A stretch of 33,324 nucleotides of DNA from Alkalinema sp. RU_4_3 (lineage in GTDB: Bacteria; Cyanobacteriota; Cyanobacteriia; Leptolyngbyales; Leptolyngbyaceae): NCBI GenBank assembly GCA_012031975.1, contig JAAUSA010000029.1, positions 1 through 33,324 on the forward strand, in the 5' to 3' direction. A model generated the notes under the pieces. The model saw only the letters and a program-made list of their open reading frames with translations. It did no database searches and was not told the DNA's origin. Position 1 is the stretch's first letter. Every line of letters starts with the position of its first letter. Position numbers and translations under genes: made by a program. Positions 6,472-32,813 of this stretch are shown in pieces.

Positions 6472-6663
6472 TTGCCATTTAATTTTGCAATTTTGGGCAA
6501 TATTTTTTTGTGCCATTTCTAATTGGGAGAAGTATCCTGGAATCTGGTTTTCCGGGATGCATCGTCAGTTTAGTAATTTAAGCGAATGGGATTTGATCAA
6601 GGTTTAACACAACCCATTCCTTGTCAGGTATTCATTATTAGAATCAGCACACCAGAGGCAGTC

Positions 6664-7524
6664 ATGGCAAATCAACGGATGCAAGCGATCGATACAACGC
6701 GCCTAGGCCTAGGTGTCCTTGCGGGCGCAATGCTTGCTCTGGGCGGTTGCAAACCCCAAGCCAAGGAAACCGCTCCCACCGCCGCTGCCCCCGCATCCAA
6801 CAACCAGATTGCGATCAATCTGCCCAATCCGCCAGCTAATACCCTGCCTGTTCCCCCCAATCCCCCGAGCGGCATGCCCACCGTGCCCCTGAAGGCCCTT
6901 GACCCCATCCAAAGCGCCCCCGGTCGCCTCTCCCAGCCCCTCAAACATCGAAGCGCGATCCCTCTCGGCGGTCCTCCCTAGCCAACTAGAGCAGCCCCTG
7001 CAAGCGATCGCCCCCAAGCGCGTCCTCACCAAGCTGACTAATAAAGCCAAATCCCTCCTCCAACCCAAGGCCAAACCGCCGACCAAAATCGCTGCGGCCC
7101 CGGTTAAGCCTAAGCAAGTTCAAAAAAAACAGGCAAAACCCCAGGCTCCGATGGTCTTCGACCGACCGGAGGTCATCGCCCCACAGCCGCCCGCAGTGAT
7201 GCCCCAGGTGAGCGTCGCGCCGTTGCCTACGGCCCCTGTCATCATGCCCGCTGCTCCGATCGCCCCCGCCCCCCCGTGGTTTCCCTAGTGGACCAGGTTG
7301 AAATTACTGGGGTGGCCCAGGTCGGTAACCAACTCCTGGTGGTCGCCCGAGGCCCCGGTGAAAGCAGTGCAAGGACCCTCGCCCCCGGTAGCTACCTGGC
7401 CTCCGGACGGATCCTTGTCAAAGCCGTGCGCCAAGCGGGTAAAGAGCCCGTGGTGGTGCTGGTGGAAAACGGCGTCGAAACCCTGCGCTCCGTCAGCGGT
7501 CAGCGGGCGATGTCAATGCGGTAA
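6664..7524 (+). CDS. Proline-rich putative lipoprotein, doubly frameshifted
   Basis: Three overlapping frames make one product. Frame 1 (from ATG 6664) gives a lipoprotein signal ending in LALGGC, then Ala/Pro-rich sequence. Frame 2 is used from about 6890-6975 to 7275 (KAPPVASPSPSNIEARSLS to PMVFDRPEVIAPQPP). The final part returns to frame 1 (VVSLVDQVEITGVAQVGNQL to QRAMSMR). The second shift sits in a C-run near 7268-7276: adding one C gives APAPPVVSLVDQ. The first needs one extra or two missing bases near 6890-6975. The C-terminal beta-rich segment (GVAQVGNQLLVVARGP, then GSYLASGRILVKAVR, then VVLVENG) recalls PilP-like or envelope-assembly lipoproteins of cyanobacteria, but the function is unknown. 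Confidence 0.65.
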
Positions 7525-7547
7525 GGTTCGTTAAGAAAGTCCTACAA

Positions 7548-7571
7548 CGGAGCCACAAATTTGTCGCTCCG
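7548..7571. repeat. Palindromic intergenic hairpin
   Basis: CGGAGC at 7548-7553 pairs with GCTCCG at 7566-7571 around an inner ACAAATTTGT palindrome, giving a near-perfect 24-bp dyad. It lies between the lipoprotein stop and the next start. It could be a terminator or a copy of a dispersed cyanobacterial palindrome; there is no T-run. Confidence 0.5.
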
Positions 7572-7607
7572 CCTTAGGCTGAGGGAAGTTCTTTCCTTGG
7601 AACAGTC

Positions 7608-8113
7608 ATGAGTCCTGCCGACCTGAGCCTCAATCCCGCCAGTCTGAAGCTTAACTACAGCGATCGCTACCGCTGTCCCCTCTGTCAGCATGGCACCCTA
7701 TCTAGTCTCATCTTGATGGATGTATTTGCCTGCGACTTCTGCCGCCACATGTTTACAGCCAACCTAGAGAACCAGGTGCTGCGCGTTGAAGACAGTTTGC
7801 AAAATTTGGCTTGGCGTTGGAACGGCAGCGCTGGCTCGGCATTGGCCAGGGTGACGGCAGTCTCTCCGGTATCATGTGGAGCTTTTGTCTCGGCATCATG
7901 ATTTTCCCCGCCCTGCTCGTGGGCCTGCCCATGCTAATCTTCGAACCCCTACCCGGCAGTGCAGCCAGTTGGTTTCCGGCCTTTTGGTTTGTGGCCACCT
8001 TGGTGCTCCATGGGACCATGGGGGCCTGGCTGCTGATGGAATATCACCAGTTTGCGCCCTACATTACGGCAAAAACGAGGTTGAGAATGTGGCGGACTAG
8101 AGCGTATAGGTGA
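7608..8113 (+). CDS. Zinc-ribbon plus two-helix membrane protein, frameshifted
   Basis: The N-terminal frame (from ATG 7608) has a zinc ribbon, YRCPLCQHGTL and FACDFCRHMF (two CxxC pairs), followed by VEDSLQNLAWRWNG. After about 7820 the protein continues in the next frame: QRWLGIGQGDGSLSG, then two transmembrane helices (GIMWSFCLGIMIFPALLVGL and FWFVATLVLHGTMGAWLLM). One missing base in AACGGCAGCGC (for example GGCC to GGC) explains the break and restores WRWNG-x-RWLG. The overall plan matches a conserved cyanobacterial membrane protein of unknown function. The stop overlaps the convergent pmbA stop by 17 bp. Confidence 0.7.
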
Positions 8114-9489: not shown

Positions 9490-10931
9490 TTAAGCATCTC
9501 CTCCAAACACCTCAACTTGGTCAAATACTGCCATAGGGGAGCCATGACCCACAGTAATGGCTTGGTTGGGCTCACCCTTGCCACAGGTGGGGGTGCCATA
9601 CATCTGCCAACTGTCGCCATTGCCGAGCCCCGTCAGTCCGGCCCAAAACTGGGGGGTGATGCCTCGATAATTGGGGTTGCGTACCGTGCGGGTGAGTTTT
9701 CCATCTTCGATCAGCCGTCCGTATTCACAGCTGAACTGGAACTTATGGCGGCGATCGTCAATCGACCATGACCGATTAGACTCCATATAGACCCCCCGTT
9801 CAATGGTGCTGATCAGCTCATCGAAGCTAGAGGTGCCGGGTTCTAGGTTGAGATTGGCCATGCGATCGATGGGTGGACGGTTCCAGGAACAGGCCCGGCC
9901 ACAGGCCACGCCTTTCACGCCCAGTCGTTCCTGGCTCTCGATGCTGCCGAGGCCCCGGTGGAGTACCCCTTCTTTAATTAAATATTCCCTGGTGGCGGGG
10001 GCGCCAGTATCGTCGAAGGCATAGCTGGCAAATTCCCCTTGAATGGTGGGGTCAAAGGTAATGTTCATCAAAGGTGAGCCATAGACCAACTGGCCGAAGT
10101 CCTGGGGTTGGACGAAGCTGCCCCCGGCGTAGTTGCGCTCGTCGCCGAGGATGCGATCGAGTTCTAGGGGGTGGCCCACGCTTTCGTGGATTTGCAGCAG
10201 CATCTGATCCGGGGCGAGCACCAGTGTCGTGGTTTCCGTGGGGCAGTCGGGGGCGGTCAGCAGTTCGATGGCCTGGTGGGAGATCCGATCGACCCGCTCC
10301 CACAGGTCGGGCGTGACCAGGTGCTCCAGGCCCCCTTGAAAGCAACGGGCGTACCAGCCATTGTCCGATCGCCGCTGGGTGACATTGCCTAGCTGGGCCG
10401 TGGCGGCAAAGTCTGTGCTGATCCGGTAGAAGCGTTGGTAGACCTCGGAGCCATTGCTGCTAACAAACCAGGTCTCGGTTTTGGTGAGCAGGACGCCTGC
10501 GCTGACTTGGACAATTTGGTCGGAGGTTTTGAGGCGTCGGCAGATTTGGCTGAGGAGGTCGTTGATTTCGCCGGGGTGAGTTTGTTAAAGCTAGCTTCGT
10601 AGGGGGAGCTGTATTCCCCGACCATGCGGGGGCGCACCGTGGGGGAGGTGGGGGTGAGCTTCCACAGGCTCGCGGTGATGGCAGCTTGGTAGGCGCGTTC
10701 GGCAGTGGCTTTGACGGAGTCAGGGTGAAGATTTTGGGTGGCAGCGTAACCCATCTGGCCCCGCACCAATACCTCGACCATGATTCCCTGGGATATTGTG
10801 GTGCCGTTTTGTTCCGGGTGGCCGTCCCGCAGCGATCGCGCCATCTGGGTTTCCTGGGTGCCCCGCGGGCCTACCCAGGTGGCCTCTGGGAGGTCTAGCT
10901 GATTTAAAAGGTGGATAAGTTGAGCAATCAT
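9490..10931 (-). CDS. tldD: TldD metallopeptidase subunit, frameshifted
   Basis: The catalytic partner of PmbA. The zinc motif HESVGH (HExxxH) lies in MLLQIHESVGHPLELDR, and the C-terminal conserved TPTCGKGEPNQ is present. The first part starts at ATG 10931 (MIAQLIHLLNQLDLPEAT) and runs to FNKLTPA. The frame then breaks near 10585: in coding sense CCGGCGAAATC, where CCGGCGGAAATC would continue AEINDLLSQICRRLKTSDQ into the intact remainder. It is one lost G. The reading frame is otherwise open to the stop at 9490. With the base restored it is a full-length TldD of about 480 residues. Confidence 0.88.
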
Positions 10932-11266: not shown

Positions 11267-12720
<1,454 letters not shown>

Positions 12721-12780: not shown

Positions 12781-14124
12781 ATGGCTAAGTTTAAGGACCC
12801 ATTTTCAAGCGCCCATTTTAAACCCCGTCAATCGCCCACCCGACCCCTAGGCCCAATTCCTATGACCGTTGCAACTTCTCCGGTTCCGACCGCCATGGAG
12901 GCCCCCAAGCATGGCCTCCCCGTCACGATCATCACAGGCTTCCTCGGCAGCGGCAAAACCACGTTGCTCAATCACATCCTGACGAATCAGCAGGGCCTGA
13001 AGACGGCGGTGCTGGTCAATGAGTTTGGGGAAATCGGCATCGACAATGAGCTGATCGTCAAGACCGACGAAGATGGCACCCTGGTGGAGCTGAGCAACGG
13101 CTGCATCTGCTGCACGATCAACGAAGACCTGATGAACGCGGTTTACAAAGTATTAGAGCGCGAAGAGAAGGTGGACTACCTGGTGGTGGAGACCACGGGC
13201 CTGGCGGATCCGCTGCCTGTGGCGCTGACGTTTCTCGGTTCGGAGCTGCGGGATATGACGCGCCTGGACTCGATTATTACGGTGGTGGACTCCGAGAACT
13301 TTAGCCTGGACCTGTTCAACAGCCAAGCAGCGGAGAGCCAACTGGCCTACGGCGACATCATCCTGCTCAACAAGTCGGACCTGGTTTCGGAAGACACCCT
13401 CGACCAGTTGGAACTGCGGATTCGCGATCTCAAGGATGGCGCCCGCATCCTCCGCACCACCAAGGGCAATGTACCCCTGTCCCTGCTGCTGAGCGTCGGG
13501 CTGTTTGAATCCGATCGCTACTACGAACCCGAGGGCAAGGCCCACGACCATAGCCACGACCATGCACATAGCCACGATGATCACGCCAACTGCGATCACG
13601 ACCATGGCCATTGCGAGCATGACGACCATGCAGGCCACAGCCATGCAGAACACAGTCACGCAGAGCATAACCACGACCATAGCAACTGCGATCATGACCA
13701 TGGCCACTGTGAACATGAGGGTGAGCATGATGACCATGCAGGCCATAGCCACGCGGGCCATGACCATAGCCACCATCATCACGCCCATTCCGATCACCTA
13801 GCCATTGATGGCTTTACCTCGGTCTCGATCGTCAGCGACAAACCCTTCAGCATCCGCAAGTTCCAGCATTTCCTCGACAACCAGATGCCCGCCAACGTGT
13901 TCCGGGCCAAGGGCATCCTCTGGTTCGACGAAAGTCCCAAGCGCCATATCTTCCACCTCTCCGGCAAACGCTTCTCCCTCGATGACGACCAATGGAAGAC
14001 CGACGAGCGCAAAAACCAGCTCGTCCTGATCGGCCAAAACCTCGATCATGACAAACTCCGCCGGGAAGTCGAAGCCTGCTTGACGGTCAAGAGCGTGGCC
14101 CGAGGTAAGGGGTTTGGGAAGTAG
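12781..14124 (+). CDS. CobW/COG0523 GTPase metallochaperone with His-rich linker
   Basis: A 447-residue G3E-family GTPase that probably delivers zinc or another divalent metal. The GTPase domain has Walker A GFLGSGKTT (residues 53-61), the metal-binding CICC (108-111), ETTGLADP, and the guanine motif NKSD (197-200). Residues about 255-339 form a linker with roughly 35 His plus Cys and Asp. It includes a duplicated block, NCDHDHGHCEH followed by DDHAGHSHA, at about 270-289 and 302-325. The C-terminal CobW_C domain starts near FTSVSIVSDKPFS. An alternative start is Met28. The gene is divergent from cysS, and its last 11 bases overlap the 2Fe-2S gene. The many CxCC-type cyanobacterial relatives are often zinc-regulated, but no clear Zur box is seen. 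Confidence 0.92.
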   Translation: MAKFKDPFSSAHFKPRQSPTRPLGPIPMTVATSPVPTAMEAPKHGLPVTIITGFLGSGKTTLLNHILTNQQGLKTAVLVNEFGEIGIDNELIVKTDEDGTLVELSNGCICCTINEDLMNAVYKVLEREEKVDYLVVETTGLADPLPVALTFLGSELRDMTRLDSIITVVDSENFSLDLFNSQAAESQLAYGDIILLNKSDLVSEDTLDQLELRIRDLKDGARILRTTKGNVPLSLLLSVGLFESDRYYEPEGKAHDHSHDHAHSHDDHANCDHDHGHCEHDDHAGHSHAEHSHAEHNHDHSNCDHDHGHCEHEGEHDDHAGHSHAGHDHSHHHHAHSDHLAIDGFTSVSIVSDKPFSIRKFQHFLDNQMPANVFRAKGILWFDESPKRHIFHLSGKRFSLDDDQWKTDERKNQLVLIGQNLDHDKLRREVEACLTVKSVARGKGFGK

Positions 14125-19375: not shown

Positions 19376-20706
19376 ATGACAGAGCGTATTGCAGTAATCG
19401 GCGGCGGCATTCTGGGCATGACCCTCGCCCTGCGCCTAGCCCAACAGGGTAGACAGGTCAGCCTCTATGAAGCGGGCGATCGCTTTGGCGGTCTGGCCGA
19501 TGCCTGGGAACTGGGGGATGTCCAATGGGATCGCCACTACCATGTCACCCTGCTGTCGGATTTAAAACTCCGGGGTCTGCTGGAGGAACTCGATCTCGAT
19601 CGCCAAATGGAATGGGTGGAGACCAAACGGGTTTCTTCACCGATGGCAAATTGTTTTCCGTGTCGAATACGGTGGAGTTTTTGAAATTCCCTGTGCTGGG
19701 GCTGATTGATAAACTGCGCCTGGGCTATTCGATTTTCTATGCCTCGAAAGTGACCAACTGGCGACGGCTGGAAAAACTGACCGCTGTGCAGTGGCTTGAA
19801 GGGATCGCCGGAAAAAAAGCCTTTGCTAAGGTCTGGATGCCGCTATTGCGATCGAAGCTAGGCGACAACTATGGCAAGGCCTCGGCTTCCTTTATCTGGG
19901 CGATCATTGCCCGGATGTATGCGGCGCGCCGTAGCGGACTGAAAAAAGAGATGTTCGGCTATTTGCCCGGCGGCTACGATCGCATGCTGAAGCGGTTCGA
20001 GGAAGTGCTGAGTCAGAATGGTGTCGAGCTCTACCTCAATCATGCCGTAGAATCCGTGGTGGCCCAGCCTGATGGGGGTGTGGCGCTGAAGTTTAGCAAT
20101 GGGTCTAGGGCGGAGGTGGATCAGACGGTGCTGACGATCGCCTCGCCGATCGCCGCCAAGGTTTGCCCAGGCCTGTCCGAATGGGAGCGCGAACGCCACA
20201 ATGCCATTGAATACCAGGGCATTGTCTGTGCTTCGGTGCTGCTCAAGAAAGCGATTTCGCCCTTCTATGTCACCAACATTACCGACACCTGGGTGCCCTT
20301 TACTGGGGTGATCGAAATGACGGCCTTGGTCAATCGATCGGAATTTGGCGGGCGCCATTTGGTCTATTTGCCGAAATATGTGCCCGTGAACGATCCCATC
20401 TTCCAGGAGAGTGATGAAGCCATCCAAGACCGCTTCCTGGGGGCCTTGGTGCAGATGTATCCCCACTTTAGTCGGGAGGATGTCTTGACCTTTAAGCTCT
20501 CCCGCGTCCGTCAGGTGTTCGCCGTCACGGGGCTGAACTATTCCCAAAATCTGCCGCCCATGCAGACCACGGTGCCCGGTGTCCATATCATCAATTCAGC
20601 CCATATTCACAATGGCACCCTGAATGTGAACGAGTCGATTATCCTAGCGGAAAATGCCGCCCAAACTATTCCCCAGACGAGCCGCAAACCCTTAGTGCTG
20701 CGGTAG
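19376..20706 (+). CDS. NAD(P)/FAD-dependent oxidoreductase (amine-oxidase/HemY-like), frameshifted
   Basis: The N-terminal frame from ATG 19376 has the dinucleotide-binding IAVIGGGILGMTLALRLAQQ and LYEAGDRFGGLADAW. It then breaks near 19625-19627, where CCAAACGGG replaces CCAAAACGGG. Restoring one A continues VETKTGFFTDGKLFSVSN in the second frame, which runs to 20706 (FIWAIIARMYAAR, GYLPGGYDRML, and C-terminal HIHNGTLNVNESI). The product is about 440 residues. Such oxidoreductases are frequent in O-antigen or capsule loci, but the substrate is unknown; UDP-galactopyranose mutase-like chemistry is a possible alternative. Confidence 0.82.
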
Positions 20707-23150: not shown

Positions 23151-25372
23151 ATGAAATCCAAGACCGCTAATCCCTCTGGAGTTCGTTCTGCCTCACTTGA
23201 GGCCGGAGGTCCCTCTGATTTACAGCGCTATTGGCAGGTCCTAGGCCGTCGCTGGAAGCCCGCCGCTGCTGTGGCGATCGCCACCACCGCTGCATCGGCT
23301 GGTCTGGCTACGTTTCAGAAGCCGACCTACAATGCCACGGGCAAGCTGCTGATTCGGAGCAATCGCCTCTCTGTGCTGACGGGCCTCGGCGGTGATGCCT
23401 CCGCCACCACCAATAACCTGGGGGCACTCTCCCAATTGAGCCAGCAGAGTACCCCCGTCCGCACGGAGGCTGAAAACGTTCTCTCTCGCCCGGTCCTCGA
23501 AAAAACCATTGAAGTCCTGAAACTCAAGGACAAGATGGGAAAACCCATCCGGGTTGAGGATTTGATGCTCAAGGTGAAGGTGAAGGAAGTCTCCGGGGCC
23601 GACGTGCTCAAGGTGGTCTACGACGACCGCGATCCGCGCAAAGCCGCTGCGGTGGTCAATCAGATCATGCAGCAATATATGCAGCTCAACGTCCAGAACA
23701 ACCAGTCCGAGGCCGTTGCTGCCCGCCAATTCATTGCCCAGGAATTGCCCAAAACTGCCTCCGTGGTTGAGCAGGCTGACGTGGCCCTACGACTCTTTAA
23801 AGAGCGCAATCAAGTCACCGATCTAGCTGGGGAGGAAAAGCTCCTGGCCCAGGCCCTCGGGAACCTGGAGGGGGAAATGACGCGGGTGCAAACCGACTTG
23901 ACCGATGTCAGTAGCCGCTACGGCAACCTCAACGGCAAGATTGGCATGGATACCCGCGAGGCGATCGCCGCCGCACCCTCAGCCAGTCCACCAGCGTCCA
24001 GCAGTCCCTCCAGCAGCTCCAGCAAATCCAGGCCCAGCTTGCCCTAGAGCGTGCCAAATACCAGGACAATCACCCAGTCATCATCAATCTCATTGAGAAG
24101 GAAGCCGCCCTGCGTCAAATTCTCCGCACCCGCATTGGTCAGACCGTCGGGGAGCAGGTCGTCCCCGATCAAAGTTTGAACATGGGGGAAATTAAGCAAA
24201 GCCTAATTAAGGACTATGTGAGTGCGGAGGTGGCCCAATCGGGTCTCACCCAAAAATACAAAACCCTGTCCGGTGCCCGCGAAAGCTACCGTGCCCGCCT
24301 CAGTCGTCTGCCCCAACTGGAGCAGGAACAACGCACCCTCCAGCGCCGCTTGGACGTGGCCCAGAACACCTATGCCACCCTGCTCAAGCGTCTCCAGGAG
24401 GTCCAGCTCGCCGAGCGCCAGGCCATTGGTACCGCCCGATTGATTGAGGCCGCATCCCCGCCGCTTAAGCCCAGCGGCTCCACCAAAGTATTGACCCTGG
24501 CCCTTGGGGGCATCTTGGGTCTGTTGCTGGGCAGCGCCACCGCCAGCTTCCTAGAGATGCGCGATCGCTCGATCAAAACCGTCAAAGAAGCCCGCGACCT
24601 GTTCGGCTATACCTGGCTGGGCACCATTCCCTACTTCGGCAAGCAGCCTAAGCGCCGTCAGCCCAACTGGACGGTGCCCGCCCTGCCCGTGCGGGATATG
24701 CCGCGATCCCTCGTGAGTGCCGCCTACCGGATGATCCAGGCCAATTTGAGATTTTTGAGCCTCGATCGCACCCTAAAAACCCTGGTGATTACCAGCTCCG
24801 TACCCAAGGAAGGCAAATCGACGGTGGCGGCGAATTTAGCGGCGACCATGGCCCAGTTGGGGCGGCGGACGCTGTTGATTGACGCCGATCTGCACAATCC
24901 TTCCCAGCATCACATATGGGGAATCTCCAATGTGGAGGGCCTGAGCGATGTCGTGGTGGGTGGAATTACGGCAGCGAAGGCGGCCCAGCCTGTGTTGGAC
25001 AATCTCTCGGTGCTCTGTGCGGGATCGATGCCGCCCAACCCCCTGGCGCTGCTGGATTCTAAGCGGATGTCATTGCTGATCGATAGCCTAGAAGATCAAT
25101 ACGACTGTATTTTGCTGGATGCGCCCCCCCTGGTGGTGGAGGCAGAAGCACTTACGTTGGGGCGAATTACCCAGGGGATTTTGCTGGTGACGCGCCCAGG
25201 GGTGGTGGATCTCGAAAGTGCCCGGACGGCGAAGGAATTGCTGGACCAGTCCAATCAGCCAGTGCTGGGCATGGTGATTAACAGTGCGATTTTGGAGGGG
25301 GATGCATTGCGATCAAATTATTACAGCGACGAACCCCGTGTACCCGTGGCGGAGGCCATGGCCGTACGTTAG
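23151..25372 (+). CDS. Wzc-like polysaccharide co-polymerase / tyrosine autokinase, frameshifted
   Basis: An inner-membrane chain-length regulator and BY-kinase. The N-terminal Wzz domain follows a first transmembrane helix (AVAIATTAASAGLATF). Coiled-coil sequence runs to a second helix (VLTLALGGILGLLLGSATAS). The cytoplasmic kinase has Walker A SSVPKEGKST, Walker A-prime LLIDADLHNP and Walker B CILLDAPPL. The C-terminal tail has only a short Tyr pair (SNYYSDEP) rather than a long cluster. The frame breaks near 23965-23973: GCCGCCGCACCC, where one more C (GCCGCCGCCACCC) joins REAIAA to TLSQSTSVQQSLQQ. With it the product is about 740 residues. It is followed by the export gene after 47 bp. 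Confidence 0.9.
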
Positions 25373-26536: not shown

Positions 26537-26665
26537 ATGGCTACCCAGTTCCACCCTCAAACTGTAAATAAAAGTTAAAAGCCCGCTGATCTAGAAAACT
26601 TGCACTTAGTATTACAGATAACTTAGGCTCGGAATAGTTTATGTCGAACCTTTAAGGTGCTCTGT

Positions 26666-27094
26666 ATGATGAACGATCAAGTTACCCTGTATGCTGACGG
26701 CGAAGTTGTGGAGTTTCGGTCCGGTATTCCCCTCAGGCGAGTCGCCACTGGGAGAAAGATTCCAGCCTTAATCAAGGCCCTGAAATTTAGTCGATCGCCC
26801 CACTTCACAATCAGTGGCGATCCTGCACCCACGGACAAAATTCCCCAGTCCCGAGGCGGACAACATATTAATGAGGTGGGGTTAAAACTCCTGACCACCT
26901 TCGAGGGCTGTGAGCTGGAAGCCTACGATGATGGGGTTGGGGTTCTGACGATCGGCTACGGCCATACGGCAGGAGTCGTAGAGGGGATGGCCATTACCCA
27001 GGCTGAGGCCGAGGAATTTCTGCGTCAGGATCTAGAGGAATTTGAATCCTATGTGACGGATTTGGTCAATGACGGCCCCCTTGATTTGGCTTAG
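26666..27094 (+). CDS. GH24 phage-type lysozyme domain protein, C-terminally short
   Basis: A 142-residue protein. After about 70 residues of unrecognised leader (VTLYADGEVVEFRSGIPLRR...) comes a GH24 muramidase start: LLTTFEGCELEAYDDGVGVL, then TIGYGHT. This supplies the family Glu-Asp-Thr catalytic triad (Glu in FEG, Asp in AYDD, Thr in LTIGYGH). Typical GH24 domains continue with an NQFDALVSFAFN-like helix; here the frame ends at TDLVNDGPLDLA, so about half of the domain is missing. Other frames downstream give no match. ATG 26666 follows AAGGTG. It is first in a four-gene operon, 32 bp from the next start. No signal peptide or holin is seen. Activity is uncertain. Confidence 0.75.
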   Translation: MMNDQVTLYADGEVVEFRSGIPLRRVATGRKIPALIKALKFSRSPHFTISGDPAPTDKIPQSRGGQHINEVGLKLLTTFEGCELEAYDDGVGVLTIGYGHTAGVVEGMAITQAEAEEFLRQDLEEFESYVTDLVNDGPLDLA

Positions 27095-27126: not shown

Positions 27127-28023
27127 ATGGCAAATCCACATAAACATGCTGAATTTATCGTTGAAGCCTGCACCGAAGATCATCATCGCAATAAAACGGC
27201 TGCCCGTGCAAGTTTTAATGGTTTACTGCAAGAGGCGCCGAGTGGCGTTTCGACTTCTATTGCCAATGCTTTGTCCCAGCAATTGATCTATCAGATGCAG
27301 CTATTGGAGCCGGGGAAATTTGTCAGCTTTGAGGATTTGAATGTCGATCTCGATAGTGCAGCGTTTCCTTACGTGCAGGCTTCGGCGAGGGATGCTTTGG
27401 CGAGGGCGATCGCCGCGCGCGGGGAAGTCATGCAGGTGAATTCTTCCTACCGTACGGTGGCCCAACAAATGCTGCTGTATAACGATCGCTTTAATAATTC
27501 CAATCCCGTGGCCCCACCGGGTGCGAGTAATCATCAAACGGGATTGGCAATAGATATTGAAGATCCGCGCGGTTGGGATCCCTTCTTGATCGAGCAGGGC
27601 TGGGAGCCCTTGGGCGGCGATCCGCCTCACTTTGACTATCTGGGGGATGATGTGGTGGATTTCCGCGCGACGGCGATCTTGGCCTTCCAGAAACTATGGA
27701 ACTTGAACAATCCTTCTGCTGCGATCGATGAAGATGGTTCCTTTGGCCCCGGCACTGAATCAGCGCTATTGCAAACACCTGCTACGGGGTTTCCCATAGC
27801 ACCCTGGGCGGATAGTCCCCGGCCTTTGCGATTGAGTACGCCGCGTATGGAAGGGGCGGATGTGTTTGCGTTGCAGGAGAAATTGAAGGCGGCGGGCTTT
27901 GCGATCGCCCCCGATGGTGAATTGGGGCCGAAGACAGCGGAGGCGATTCAGGAGTTTCAGAAGAAAAAGGGATTGGAAGTCACGGGCATTGCGACAGCTG
28001 ATCTAGTAAACCAAATTGGATAG
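27127..28023 (+). CDS. M15 (VanY-type) peptidase with C-terminal peptidoglycan-binding repeats
   Basis: A 298-residue protein. Residues about 65-172 are an M15B/C-like D-Ala-D-Ala carboxypeptidase or endopeptidase: SSYRTVAQQMLLYNDRF, zinc ligands His136 and Asp143 in SNHQTGLAIDIEDP, and His168 in DPPHFDY. Residues about 178-216 (ILAFQKLWNLNNPSAAIDED, then GSFGPGTESALL) and 238-298 (VFALQEKLKAAGFAIAPDGE, then TAEAIQEFQKKKGLEVTG) are PG_binding_1 repeats. The N-terminal 60 residues are unassigned. AGGAG precedes ATG 27127. It sits between lysozyme and lipase genes with gaps of 32 and 5 bp, so it is probably co-translated. No signal peptide is visible. Confidence 0.87.
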   Translation: MANPHKHAEFIVEACTEDHHRNKTAARASFNGLLQEAPSGVSTSIANALSQQLIYQMQLLEPGKFVSFEDLNVDLDSAAFPYVQASARDALARAIAARGEVMQVNSSYRTVAQQMLLYNDRFNNSNPVAPPGASNHQTGLAIDIEDPRGWDPFLIEQGWEPLGGDPPHFDYLGDDVVDFRATAILAFQKLWNLNNPSAAIDEDGSFGPGTESALLQTPATGFPIAPWADSPRPLRLSTPRMEGADVFALQEKLKAAGFAIAPDGELGPKTAEAIQEFQKKKGLEVTGIATADLVNQIG

Positions 28024-28028
28024 TCACC

Positions 28029-29459
28029 ATGGCCAGTAAAATTCCGATGGGCGATATGGTCGTGATTCTACCGGGGATCATGGGCAGTGTGCTGCAAAAG
28101 GATGGCAAGGATCTCTGGGCGATTTCGGGGACGGCTCTTTGGGATGGACTGCTCGATCGCGAGGGTTTTGCCGAGCGTCTGCAACTCAAAGAGGATGATC
28201 CGATCGCCGCCGATCTTGGGGATGGGATCAAGGCGGTGCGTCTGTTTGAGGATGCAATGATTGTGCCGGGGTTTATGAAAATTGATGGGTATACGCAGAC
28301 GGCCCAGATGATCACGCAAAACTTTGATGTGGTCGAGGGTGATATCTATCGAGATGCTTGGGATAAACCTGCGAATTTCTATCGCTTTCCCTACGACTGG
28401 CGGCGGGATAATCGGGCCAATGCCAGAATTTTAAAGGACCTCCTCGATCGGCGTTTGGCCTGTTGGCGATCGCGCAGTGGGAATCCCCAGGCGAAGTTGA
28501 TCCGTGATGGCCCACAGTATGGGGGGCTTGGGTGTGCTCGCTATTACCTGGAGGTGTTGGGGGGCTGGCGGGATGCCAAGGCGCTCTTTACCTTTGGTAC
28601 GCCTTACCGGGGGGCTTTGGTGGCGGTGGATTCCCTATCCAATGACTACAAGAAGCGGTTTTTGGATCTGCGGGCGGCAATGCGATCGATGACTTCGATT
28701 TATCAATTGCTGCCGATCTATGAGGTGATTAAGATTGGCGATCGCTACCATCGGGTAGCCGAAGTGGAGAAATTGCCGAACATCGATCGCGCCAAGGCCC
28801 AAAATGCCCTAGCCTTTCATCGCGAGATTGAAACCGCTGTGACAGAAAACCTCAAGGACCCAGCCTATGCGGGGTTTAGTACCATGCCGATCGTCGGGAT
28901 TCAGCAGGAAACCTACCAATCGGCGGAGCTGGTCAACGGCGAATTAAAGCTGAGCTATGACCTGCCTGCGGTGCTAAAGAATCGACCGGATTTAGTCGAT
29001 GGTGATGGCACGGTGCCCCAGGTTTCGGCGATTCCGATCGAGCTATCCAAGAGTTTGAAAAATAACTTCATTGCGGAGAAACATGCCGCGATTCAAAACC
29101 AAAAGCAGGTGCTTGAAAATCTGCGGGAAGGGATTTCCCTGAGTCAGTTTAGTTTGGATGCAGTGCGTGCCGCCCAGGGAGCGATTAGTCTTTCCCTGGA
29201 AGACCTGTACCTGGCCGATGAGCCGATTCAGCTCCGGGCCAGGCTGATGGGGAGTGCGGCCCTGGGGAATGCCTCCCTAACGGCGGAGATTACATCCATA
29301 GCCGATGGGAAGGCGATCGCCGTTCCTTTTGTGCAGGGCGAGGAGAATCGGTGGGAATTGGCGATCGAGCTGCCGGCTGGGCAGTATCGTGTGGCGGTCT
29401 CGACGGAAGATGAGGCGGTGGCGACGCCTGTCCATGATTTGTTTGAAGTATTGCGGTAG
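28029..29459 (+). CDS. LCAT-family lipase/acyltransferase, nucleophile region locally frameshifted
   Basis: A 476-residue alpha/beta-hydrolase of the lecithin:cholesterol acyltransferase type. It starts VVILPGIMGSVLQKDGKDLW, then NFYRFPYDWRRDN and LFTFGTPYRGA. The catalytic Asp is D326 in VDGDGTVP and the His is H352 in EKHAAIQNQ. The nucleophile elbow is odd: the main frame reads KLIRDGPQYGGLGCARYY at residues 157-172, but the next frame at 28504-28540 spells VMAHSMGGLGV, a perfect GxSxG-type elbow (AHSMGG). Paired single-base shifts around 28503 and 28535-28545 would restore it. Residues about 385-476 form a beta-rich tail. It lies 9 bp upstream of the caspase-serpin gene. Confidence 0.85.
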   Translation: MASKIPMGDMVVILPGIMGSVLQKDGKDLWAISGTALWDGLLDREGFAERLQLKEDDPIAADLGDGIKAVRLFEDAMIVPGFMKIDGYTQTAQMITQNFDVVEGDIYRDAWDKPANFYRFPYDWRRDNRANARILKDLLDRRLACWRSRSGNPQAKLIRDGPQYGGLGCARYYLEVLGGWRDAKALFTFGTPYRGALVAVDSLSNDYKKRFLDLRAAMRSMTSIYQLLPIYEVIKIGDRYHRVAEVEKLPNIDRAKAQNALAFHREIETAVTENLKDPAYAGFSTMPIVGIQQETYQSAELVNGELKLSYDLPAVLKNRPDLVDGDGTVPQVSAIPIELSKSLKNNFIAEKHAAIQNQKQVLENLREGISLSQFSLDAVRAAQGAISLSLEDLYLADEPIQLRARLMGSAALGNASLTAEITSIADGKAIAVPFVQGEENRWELAIELPAGQYRVAVSTEDEAVATPVHDLFEVLR

Positions 29460-29468
29460 GGGGGAATT

Positions 29469-32400
29469 ATGGCGGATACAGATCTCTATGCGTTGTTGAT
29501 TGGGATTAATTACTACTACCCCAATCGGCTGTCCGATGGCAGTACCTATAAGGATTTAGAGGGGGCTGTGGGGGATGTCTTGGCCACGCGGGCTTTCTTA
29601 CAGACGATGCGACAGGTGCCGGATGACCATATTTTGCAGTTGACTTCGACGACGGATGAGGAGGCGGGGGAGCCCGTTGAGCCCCCTGAGCAATTGCCGA
29701 CCTATGCGAATATTATTCAGAAGTTTCAGGAACTCGGCGATCTTGCTCCGGCGGGTTCCCAGGTCTATATCCACTATTCGGGCCATGGCGGGCGGGCGCG
29801 TACGATCTATCCCCAGCTTAAAGGCGGTCCTCAGGGAATTGACGAGGGTTTGGTGCCTGTGGATATTGGCAAGCCGGAGGGGCAATATCTGCGGGATATT
29901 GAACTGGGTAAGTTGCTGAAGGATTTGGTGAATAAGGGATTAATTGTTACGGTGGTGCTGGACAGTTGTCATTCTGGGGGAGCAACTCGCGGGGAAGCGG
30001 CGGTGCGGGGTTTGGATACGATCGATGATACCCCCCGACCTGGGAGCAATCTGGCCGGAACCCCGGAGGAATTGGCGGAAAACTGGAGTGGTTTGAAGAG
30101 TGAAAACACCCGAGGGTTGAACTCTGGCTGGCTGCCGGAATCGCGGGATTACGTTTTACTGGCGGCCTGTCGTCCGAATGAGTTTGCCTATGAGTATGCC
30201 TTTGATAGTCAAACCAAGCAGCGTCGTGGGGCCTTGACCTATTGGCTGTTGGATTCCCTCCAGCAACAGACGAGTGGTTTGACCTATAAAGATCTGCACG
30301 ATCGCCTCAATGGTAAAATCCGCACCCAGTTTGCCCAGCAGACGCCGATGCTGATGGGGGAGGGCGATCGCTTGGTGTTTGGCAGCGATCGGGCAGATAT
30401 TCAGTACAGTATTCCCGTCTTGACTGTGGATACGGTGAAAAACATCGTCAAATTGGAAGCAGGCCAATCGATGGGATTGCGATTGGGTGCGGAGTTTGCG
30501 ATTTATCCGAATGGGACGCGGGACTTTTCGAATAAGGACGATCGATTGGCGATCGTCAAGATTGATGAGTTGGGTTCGACCAGTTCCCAGGGGCCATTGG
30601 AGGCTATCTTTGGTCAGCGAGCCGTGGATGTAGGGGATGTGGCTATCTTGATCGCAGCTTCAACAAATCTGGTCAAAAAAGTTCAATTGCTGCCTCAGGA
30701 AGCATTTGCCGATGAGATGGAGGGTTTGCAGGAAGTTCAATCCTTGCTGGGGATGAATCCCCGGTTGACGTTGGTAGAGTCTGGAACGCCAAGTCATTAC
30801 ACGGTGGCTGTGAATGCTAACGGAGAATTTGAAATTTGCGATCAAGCAGGGGTCGTGATTCCCAATCTACGCCCGCCAGTACGGATGAAGGAACCGAATG
30901 CAGCTCGGAAGGTGGTCGATCGCCTAGTCCATTTAGCGATGTACCATGCGACGGAGGCCCTGGATAACTTCGATAAAAACTCGCCCATGTTCGGGAAAAT
31001 ACAGGTGTCCTGGCTGGGGAAACTTCAAAATTATGATCTCGCTGATCCGATTCCAGAGGTTGTTGAGCCCTTTAGTGAGCCAGGAAATCCAGCTATTGAG
31101 GAAGGGGAATGGATTTTCTTAAACATCCAAAATAATTTTAGCCGCGCAGTGAATGTAGTAGTGTTAAATCTACAGTCAGACTGGGAAATTAAACAAGTGC
31201 AACCCGCTGACCCCGGTTCCAATTTTAACACTATAGATGCAGGTAAAAGTGTCACTTACCCATTCAAACCATCATTGGTAGAAGGCTACCTTCAAACTGT
31301 GGATGTGGTTAAAGTCTTTGCTGCAATTGATTCTCCCAATTTTCGGCTGTTATCGTTGCCTGCACTCGATCAACCCCGCTTGTCTCTAGGAAGTCGCACT
31401 GGTGATCCGTTAGAAGCACTATTGGCAGCGGTTAGTGGTGCAGCTCCAAGTAGCCGTAATATCAACCCGGCTCGGTATCCCAGTCAAGAATGGACAACCC
31501 AACAAGTTCGTATCACTGTGAGCCACCCTGGGCTCAGGAACACCAGGAATTTTGAACCTATGACGGGTATTGTGCTAGGCACCATCGCTGAATCTATGGC
31601 GGATATCGTGCACGACCCAGCAACTCTAGGGAAATCAACTCGATCGACCATTATTACAACCAGACGAATCCCCACGATCGCCCAATCTGAGGAACTTTTC
31701 CGCAATGTTGAAAAGCTCGTTCAAGGGCAAAATGCCTTCAGTTTTAGGCTATTGAATGCGATCGCCTCCCCTTCGACCCAGGAAAATATATTCATTGCAC
31801 CCTTGAGTATTGCGATCGCCCTGCTGATGATCCTAAATGTAAGTAAAACGGGTAGCCCGACGCAACTGTCCATGCTGCAACTGCTCGAAGCCAGAGGGAT
31901 GACATTACGGCAGTTGAATGAAGCTGCCTATACAGCATTTACTAAAATTCAAGCGGATCTTGATCCGACCTTAAGATTGGCCTTGGCAAACTCAATATGG
32001 ACTCGGACTGGTCAAGCGACGGATTCTGTGCGCAGCCAGACATTAGTTGACTACTACGATGCTGAGGTTTGGCAATTTAGTAATGATATTGAAGAAACGG
32101 TGAATCTGATTAATGGCTGGATTTCTGATAAAACAAATGCAAAGGTCCAAGACGTTATTGATGAGCCATTACTAGTACGAGCTGTCATTGTCTTGATTAA
32201 TGCGGTCTATTTCAAAGGCATGTGGGCTTCATCCTTTGATCCAGAAACAACCCGCCCCTACTTGAGCACCAATTTTGTTCCGCCTCGACAATTAATGATG
32301 ATGTCGCAGTCCGGCGCGTTTGACTACTGCGAAACCGATGATTTTCAGGCCGTTCGCTTAGCCTATGCCAATTCTAACTTGAGCATGGCCATCTTTCTAC

Positions 32401-32813
32401 CACAAACTAGCTGCACAATTGAGCAATTTCAGTCAATGCTTAGCTCAGAATCTTGGCAAACATGGCAGACAGCGTTTCAGCGAAAGGAAGGTACCATCGA
32501 CCTGCCTCGATTTAAAGTAGCCTACCACAGGGATCTGCTAGAGGATCTTCTCAGCCTATCTAGCTTAGAAAAATTAGGTCTACAGCTTGCCGAGGGAATG
32601 CCTGAAGAACGAATCACAAGTGCCATCCATCAAACCTTCTTGGAGGTCAATGAAGCAGGTTCAGAAGCGGCGGCGGCAACCGTTGTGATCGCGACACGTG
32701 GTTTCAATCCTAATACGTTTAGGATGACTGTCGATCGCCCATTCGTCTGTATAATCCACGATCGTGATTCAGGTGTCATTCTATTCACGGGAATCATTAG
32801 AGATCCCGCCTGA
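29469..32813 (+). CDS. Caspase-fold protease (orthocaspase-like) fused to a C-terminal serpin
   Basis: An 1114-residue protein with an intact frame. Residues about 4-308 are a C14 caspase-like domain: YALLIGINYYYP, catalytic His106 in HYSGHGG, catalytic Cys167 in VLDSCHSGG, and YVLLAACRPNEFAYE. Bacterial caspase-like enzymes mostly cut after Arg or Lys. Residues about 310-680 are a beta-rich middle, with DUF4384-like sequence near 545-640. Residues about 744-1114 are a full-length serpin: NIFIAPLSIAIALLMILN, VLINAVYFKGMWASSFDP, the hinge NEAGSEAAAAT (1061-1071), and DRPFVCIIHDRDSGVILFTG. The hinge has the small residues needed for inhibitory loop insertion, and R1077 lies in the reactive loop. 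RBS GGGGGGAA precedes ATG 29469. No signal peptide or membrane segment is visible. Confidence 0.9.
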   Translation: MADTDLYALLIGINYYYPNRLSDGSTYKDLEGAVGDVLATRAFLQTMRQVPDDHILQLTSTTDEEAGEPVEPPEQLPTYANIIQKFQELGDLAPAGSQVYIHYSGHGGRARTIYPQLKGGPQGIDEGLVPVDIGKPEGQYLRDIELGKLLKDLVNKGLIVTVVLDSCHSGGATRGEAAVRGLDTIDDTPRPGSNLAGTPEELAENWSGLKSENTRGLNSGWLPESRDYVLLAACRPNEFAYEYAFDSQTKQRRGALTYWLLDSLQQQTSGLTYKDLHDRLNGKIRTQFAQQTPMLMGEGDRLVFGSDRADIQYSIPVLTVDTVKNIVKLEAGQSMGLRLGAEFAIYPNGTRDFSNKDDRLAIVKIDELGSTSSQGPLEAIFGQRAVDVGDVAILIAASTNLVKKVQLLPQEAFADEMEGLQEVQSLLGMNPRLTLVESGTPSHYTVAVNANGEFEICDQAGVVIPNLRPPVRMKEPNAARKVVDRLVHLAMYHATEALDNFDKNSPMFGKIQVSWLGKLQNYDLADPIPEVVEPFSEPGNPAIEEGEWIFLNIQNNFSRAVNVVVLNLQSDWEIKQVQPADPGSNFNTIDAGKSVTYPFKPSLVEGYLQTVDVVKVFAAIDSPNFRLLSLPALDQPRLSLGSRTGDPLEALLAAVSGAAPSSRNINPARYPSQEWTTQQVRITVSHPGLRNTRNFEPMTGIVLGTIAESMADIVHDPATLGKSTRSTIITTRRIPTIAQSEELFRNVEKLVQGQNAFSFRLLNAIASPSTQENIFIAPLSIAIALLMILNVSKTGSPTQLSMLQLLEARGMTLRQLNEAAYTAFTKIQADLDPTLRLALANSIWTRTGQATDSVRSQTLVDYYDAEVWQFSNDIEETVNLINGWISDKTNAKVQDVIDEPLLVRAVIVLINAVYFKGMWASSFDPETTRPYLSTNFVPPRQLMMMSQSGAFDYCETDDFQAVRLAYANSNLSMAIFLPQTSCTIEQFQSMLSSESWQTWQTAFQRKEGTIDLPRFKVAYHRDLLEDLLSLSSLEKLGLQLAEGMPEERITSAIHQTFLEVNEAGSEAAAATVVIATRGFNPNTFRMTVDRPFVCIIHDRDSGVILFTGIIRDPA

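Follow-up and report, generated by a model that had tools for sequence, protein, structure and literature searches.

The catalytic serine missing from a lipase-like open reading frame (ORF) of Alkalinema sp. RU_4_3 is very probably an artefact of the draft assembly, and the organism in all likelihood has an intact gene for an ordinary LCAT-like serine hydrolase. The ORF is located on contig JAAUSA010000029.1 (assembly GCA_012031975.1), of which a stretch of 33,324 nucleotides was analyzed, referred to below as the window. A previous sequence-only reading had left the choice between paired data errors and an enzyme that had truly lost its serine. The former is better supported, because five other genes on the contig are split, including cysS, and because frame switches in sampled contigs of this genome exceed those in samples of two relatives.

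Serine elbow of the lipase-like ORF

The following features were assigned to the gene:

28029–29459, + strand: LCAT-like alpha/beta-hydrolase (lipase/esterase-like) ORF of 476 aa, from the ORF and homology to 11 full-length relatives
28503–28536, + strand: out-of-frame stretch, limits approximate, from the frame comparison with homologues (+1 base on the 5' side, +2 bases on the 3' side)
28516–28518, + strand: expected catalytic Ser codon AGT, in the +1 frame
29004–29006, + strand: Asp326 of the putative triad, in frame, in a conserved column (GDGTVP)
29082–29084, + strand: His352 of the putative triad, in frame, in a conserved column (AExH)

In the printed frame, the elbow site reads RDGPQYGGLGCARYY and lacks a serine elbow; RDGPQYGGLGC stands there between KLI and ARYY, and the frame runs on as ARYYLEVLGGW. 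Translation of the frame starting at 28504 yields VMAHSMGGLGV, with AGT at 28516–28518, so the AHSMGG elbow is indeed present in the wrong frame, as had been read from the sequence.

For the homologue alignment, 13 sequences were taken in (11 full-length and two partial), and L014 and L016–L020, which are pieces of the genomes G301 and G248 plus two weak matches, were left out. The 11 full-length homologues belong to the same class and share 51–62% identity with the window protein. All 13 carry HSMGG in frame at the elbow place, and between the KLI/KVI-type and (A/S)RYY-type flanks they have 10 codons, compared to 11 in the window. Relative to these homologues, the window has one surplus base upstream of the elbow and two downstream, a net gain of three that restores the frame. 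The two compensating shifts proposed earlier are thus present in the given sequence; the choice between errors and a dead enzyme was rightly posed, but the enzyme had been said to keep its length, and the stretch in fact exceeds that of the aligned relatives by one codon. The out-of-frame part contains a run of six G.

A second scan, of named genomes, picked loci by two peptide patterns, neither of which contains the Ser motif; 191 relatives were confirmed and the best 80 kept. These overlap the 13 aligned homologues, and several are the same contigs as in a search of 388 genomes of the class. The serine was present in all 80 loci (best 80 of 191). Among those with an alignment at the respective column, Asp was found at the Asp326 position in 76 of 78 and His at the His352 position in 77 of 77, in agreement with the earlier statement that both residues are intact. 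Their assignment as triad members follows from family position and is putative.

Homology marks the protein as an ordinary LCAT-like alpha/beta hydrolase with putative lipase/acyltransferase activity. It is homologous over its full length to the 11 relatives, three of which were tested against the PF02450 profile and passed (49.5–58.5 bits), and it carries the Asp and the His of the triad. The in-frame nucleophile elbow is missing, the motif being one frame off, and the printed window protein scores 13.7 bits against PF02450, below the cut-off of 21. At columns invariant among the 11 other full-length homologues, the window protein has the shared residue in 139 of 148 cases outside the elbow and in three of eight inside. 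When each of these 11 was left out in turn, it kept 87–100% of the invariant columns outside and 3/3 inside. This pattern suggests that the lipase gene is not long dead and would fit a gene that either is still intact or was damaged only very recently.

The search of this genome found no second copy of the lipase gene or region, and no second genome of the genus was found among the 39 and 24 genomes examined. A plasmid search with the lipase gave 31 records with matches, all below 60% identity. Solved structures searched by sequence returned nothing useful (15 matches, E 0.55 to 0.69).

Split genes on the same contig

Five other window genes are split by frame changes, with the frames matching successive parts of one family each:

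3–1879, − strand: hydantoinase/oxoprolinase A-like gene, split near 1480–1530 (family matches and frame switch)
9490–10931, − strand: TldD-like gene, split near 10575 (family matches and frame switch)
11267–12720, − strand: cysS, two pieces in different frames, split near 12070 (only pieces found in the genome)
19376–20706, + strand: PRK07233-like FAD oxidoreductase, split near 19620 (family matches and frame switch)
23151–25372, + strand: Wzz/tyrosine-kinase exopolysaccharide gene, split near 23973 (family matches and frame switch)

The gene cysS is essential. On this genome, the cysS model gave two strong pieces and two weak partial matches (29.6 and 27.5 bits), none of them above the cut-off, and no full-length copy was found elsewhere in the genome, which is rated 97% complete; at this completeness, a second copy might be missing from the assembly. 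In the set of relatives, 22 of 24 genomes, this one counted among the 24, exceeded the cut-off, and the two below it were this genome and G032, in which the best match begins at base 8 of a contig. At the break, the window is one base short compared to 13 of the 14 relatives read, and the 14th (L120) carries an insertion in frame at this site. The split of cysS is an independent sign of indel error.

Frame-switch rate in the assembly

Frame switches were counted with a hexamer model of six coding states as switches on the same strand without a nearby stop and start. Switches with segments shorter than 90 nt and those with a natural-looking stop and start were excluded before counting. The counts were as follows:

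Window: 10 frame switches in 28,285 coding bases; 3 natural-looking switches put aside
20 other contigs of this genome: 24 in 139,943 coding bases; 9 put aside
Relative G015: 2 in 148,256 coding bases; 10 put aside
Relative G013 (one-contig genome, 20 of 40 fetched stretches used): 17 in 301,329 coding bases; 38 put aside

The other contigs of this genome exceeded both G015 (p about 3e-6) and G013 (p about 4e-4), and the window exceeded the other contigs weakly (p about 0.05); the counts derive from composition and include some gene junctions or real pseudogenes. Frame breaks elsewhere in the assembly are in excess at this composition-based rate, and they affect genes that must work (cysS, with four others split). 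The 17 switches in G013, although it is a one-contig genome, speak against an artefact; those recurring with identical lengths may be repeated elements. A count of shifts by tblastn with G013 proteins covered little aligned DNA and gave none in 0.8 kb of the window, one in 6.3 kb of the other contigs, and one in 17.7 kb of G015.

Of the 10 switches in the window, five are supported by homology. Those at 14122 and 17535 resemble ordinary gene junctions, and those at 6947, 7185, and 7807 are without homology support. The latter three fall within 6586–8113 (+ strand), where none of the ORFs starting at 6586, 6899, and 7811 matched an NCBIfam model; those at 6586 and 6899 are Pro- and Ala-rich.

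If errors are taken as independent, the rate in the other contigs predicts about three pairs of frame-restoring shifts within 50 nt across the genome, so that one such pair is unremarkable. Against this stands the tightness of the cluster in the lipase gene, with three surplus bases in about 40 nt against about 6 kb per shift on average. A local cause must therefore be assumed, for which the six-G run would be a candidate. A small cluster of base-count errors would displace about 33 nt, the AHSMGG elbow among them, from the reading frame; as the errors add up to three bases, the ORF would stay open. The original reads or new sequence would then be expected to remove the shift, and the protein to be an active hydrolase.

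Alternative explanations

If the printed bases are right, recent compensating indels have produced a full-length but catalytically dead protein, which would be a pseudoenzyme or a pseudogene at an early stage. The reading frame is uninterrupted from end to end, Asp and His remain, and the gene is patchy (matches in 18 of 388 class genomes, this genome counted) and broken or partial in a few, which makes it probably dispensable. Drafts with a broken or partial gene (G301, G298, and L177) also make real decay in this gene seem possible. However, none of the 80 relatives (best 80 of 191) is without the serine, and the same assembly breaks the only cysS found. With the elbow still intact in the next frame, the event would also have to be young. 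We consider this explanation unlikely. Somewhat less likely again is that the open LCAT-like protein is a real pseudoenzyme, its elbow rewritten by compensating indels, which may have retained a role in binding or regulation next to the caspase-like protease gene.

As to the broken genes themselves, the lipase gene of the G301 draft (68% complete; L014/L020) is in pieces in several frames. In the G298 draft (L013/L158), lipase homology ends near residue 254–257, inside the contig, and in L177 the gene is split in two frames, with the change at residue 249.

Ribosomes might shift frame at the G-rich stretch, in a programmed or leaky manner, and so restore the elbow in a fraction of the protein; the six-G run would lend itself to this. 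Such frameshifting would need two shifts of opposite effect within about 33 nt, and a frame transition conserved in relatives was not seen, as 13/13 aligned homologues read the elbow in one frame. On these grounds programmed frameshifting was rejected, and we regard the explanation as a whole as very improbable.

That the ORF never had a serine elbow and AHSMGG arose in the next frame by chance is in effect refuted, open as the printed frame is: the out-of-frame peptide fits the family motif at the homologous place, the best 80 of 191 relatives carry the serine, [AG]HS[ML]GG occurs once in the six frames of the window, and the shorter HS[ML]GG, even before a homologous position is required, appeared anywhere in the other two frames in just 19 of 20,000 codon shuffles of the ORF.

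Neighboring genes

A caspase-like gene lies 3' of the lipase ORF in the window. Caspase-like homology was found near the lipase (flanks up to 4 kb) in 14 of the best 80 of 191 loci, 13 of them cyanobacterial and one from Acidimicrobiia (within L136–L191), which suggests that the lipase and the caspase-like gene may share a function.

The ORF at 29469–32813 (+ strand) joins a caspase-like domain (PF00656, residues 7–295) and a serpin (PF00079, residues 753–1113). No other match spanning both the caspase and the serpin part was found among the matches listed (388 class genomes searched, 200 with a match). In six of seven relatives read, from nine loci, the caspase frame stops within seven residues after position 684–686. 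Either a real fusion or a further indel artefact may account for the joined ORF. The word "serpin" is absent from the main text of a paper on cyanobacterial metacaspases.

Upstream of the lipase, a phage-lysozyme-like ORF (26657–27094, + strand) matches positions 2–60 of the 125 of PF00959 and then stops; it is followed by a VanY/peptidoglycan-binding ORF at 27127.

Implications and comparison with known systems

The apparent serine-less lipase is most likely a data artefact rather than a novel type of enzyme. Indels that cancel out can, in drafts rich in errors, disguise an intact enzyme as a pseudoenzyme, with no stop codon as a flag. Equal caution is needed with further claims drawn from this assembly, for example the apparent caspase–serpin fusion next door.

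The closest parallels to the window protein are cyanobacterial LCAT-like hydrolases (PF02450) such as those of Phormidium tanganyikae FI6-MK23 (L002/L129, 62% identity) and Leptolyngbya sp. PCC 7375 (L007/L141, 59% identity). Both are collinear with it over the full length and share the Asp and His columns as well as the C-terminal part. The difference lies at the elbow: such relatives read LMAHSMGGLVSRYY in frame, whereas in the window the motif is out of frame and the stretch has one codon more.

A second comparison is offered by the GeneTack study of 1106 prokaryotic genomes. In the portion drawn on here, singleton frame transitions validated by BLASTp are expected to be sequencing errors and not genuine indels, and for those that Pfam confirms as well, errors in functional genes, or else indels in pseudogenes, are regarded as the likely cause (PMC3711429). 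As far as that portion of the study describes them, the singletons and the shift in the window are alike in being isolated and absent from relatives, with homology running across the shift. Unlike those singletons, the shifts in the window cancel, which keeps the ORF open, so that they would escape a plain ORF caller.
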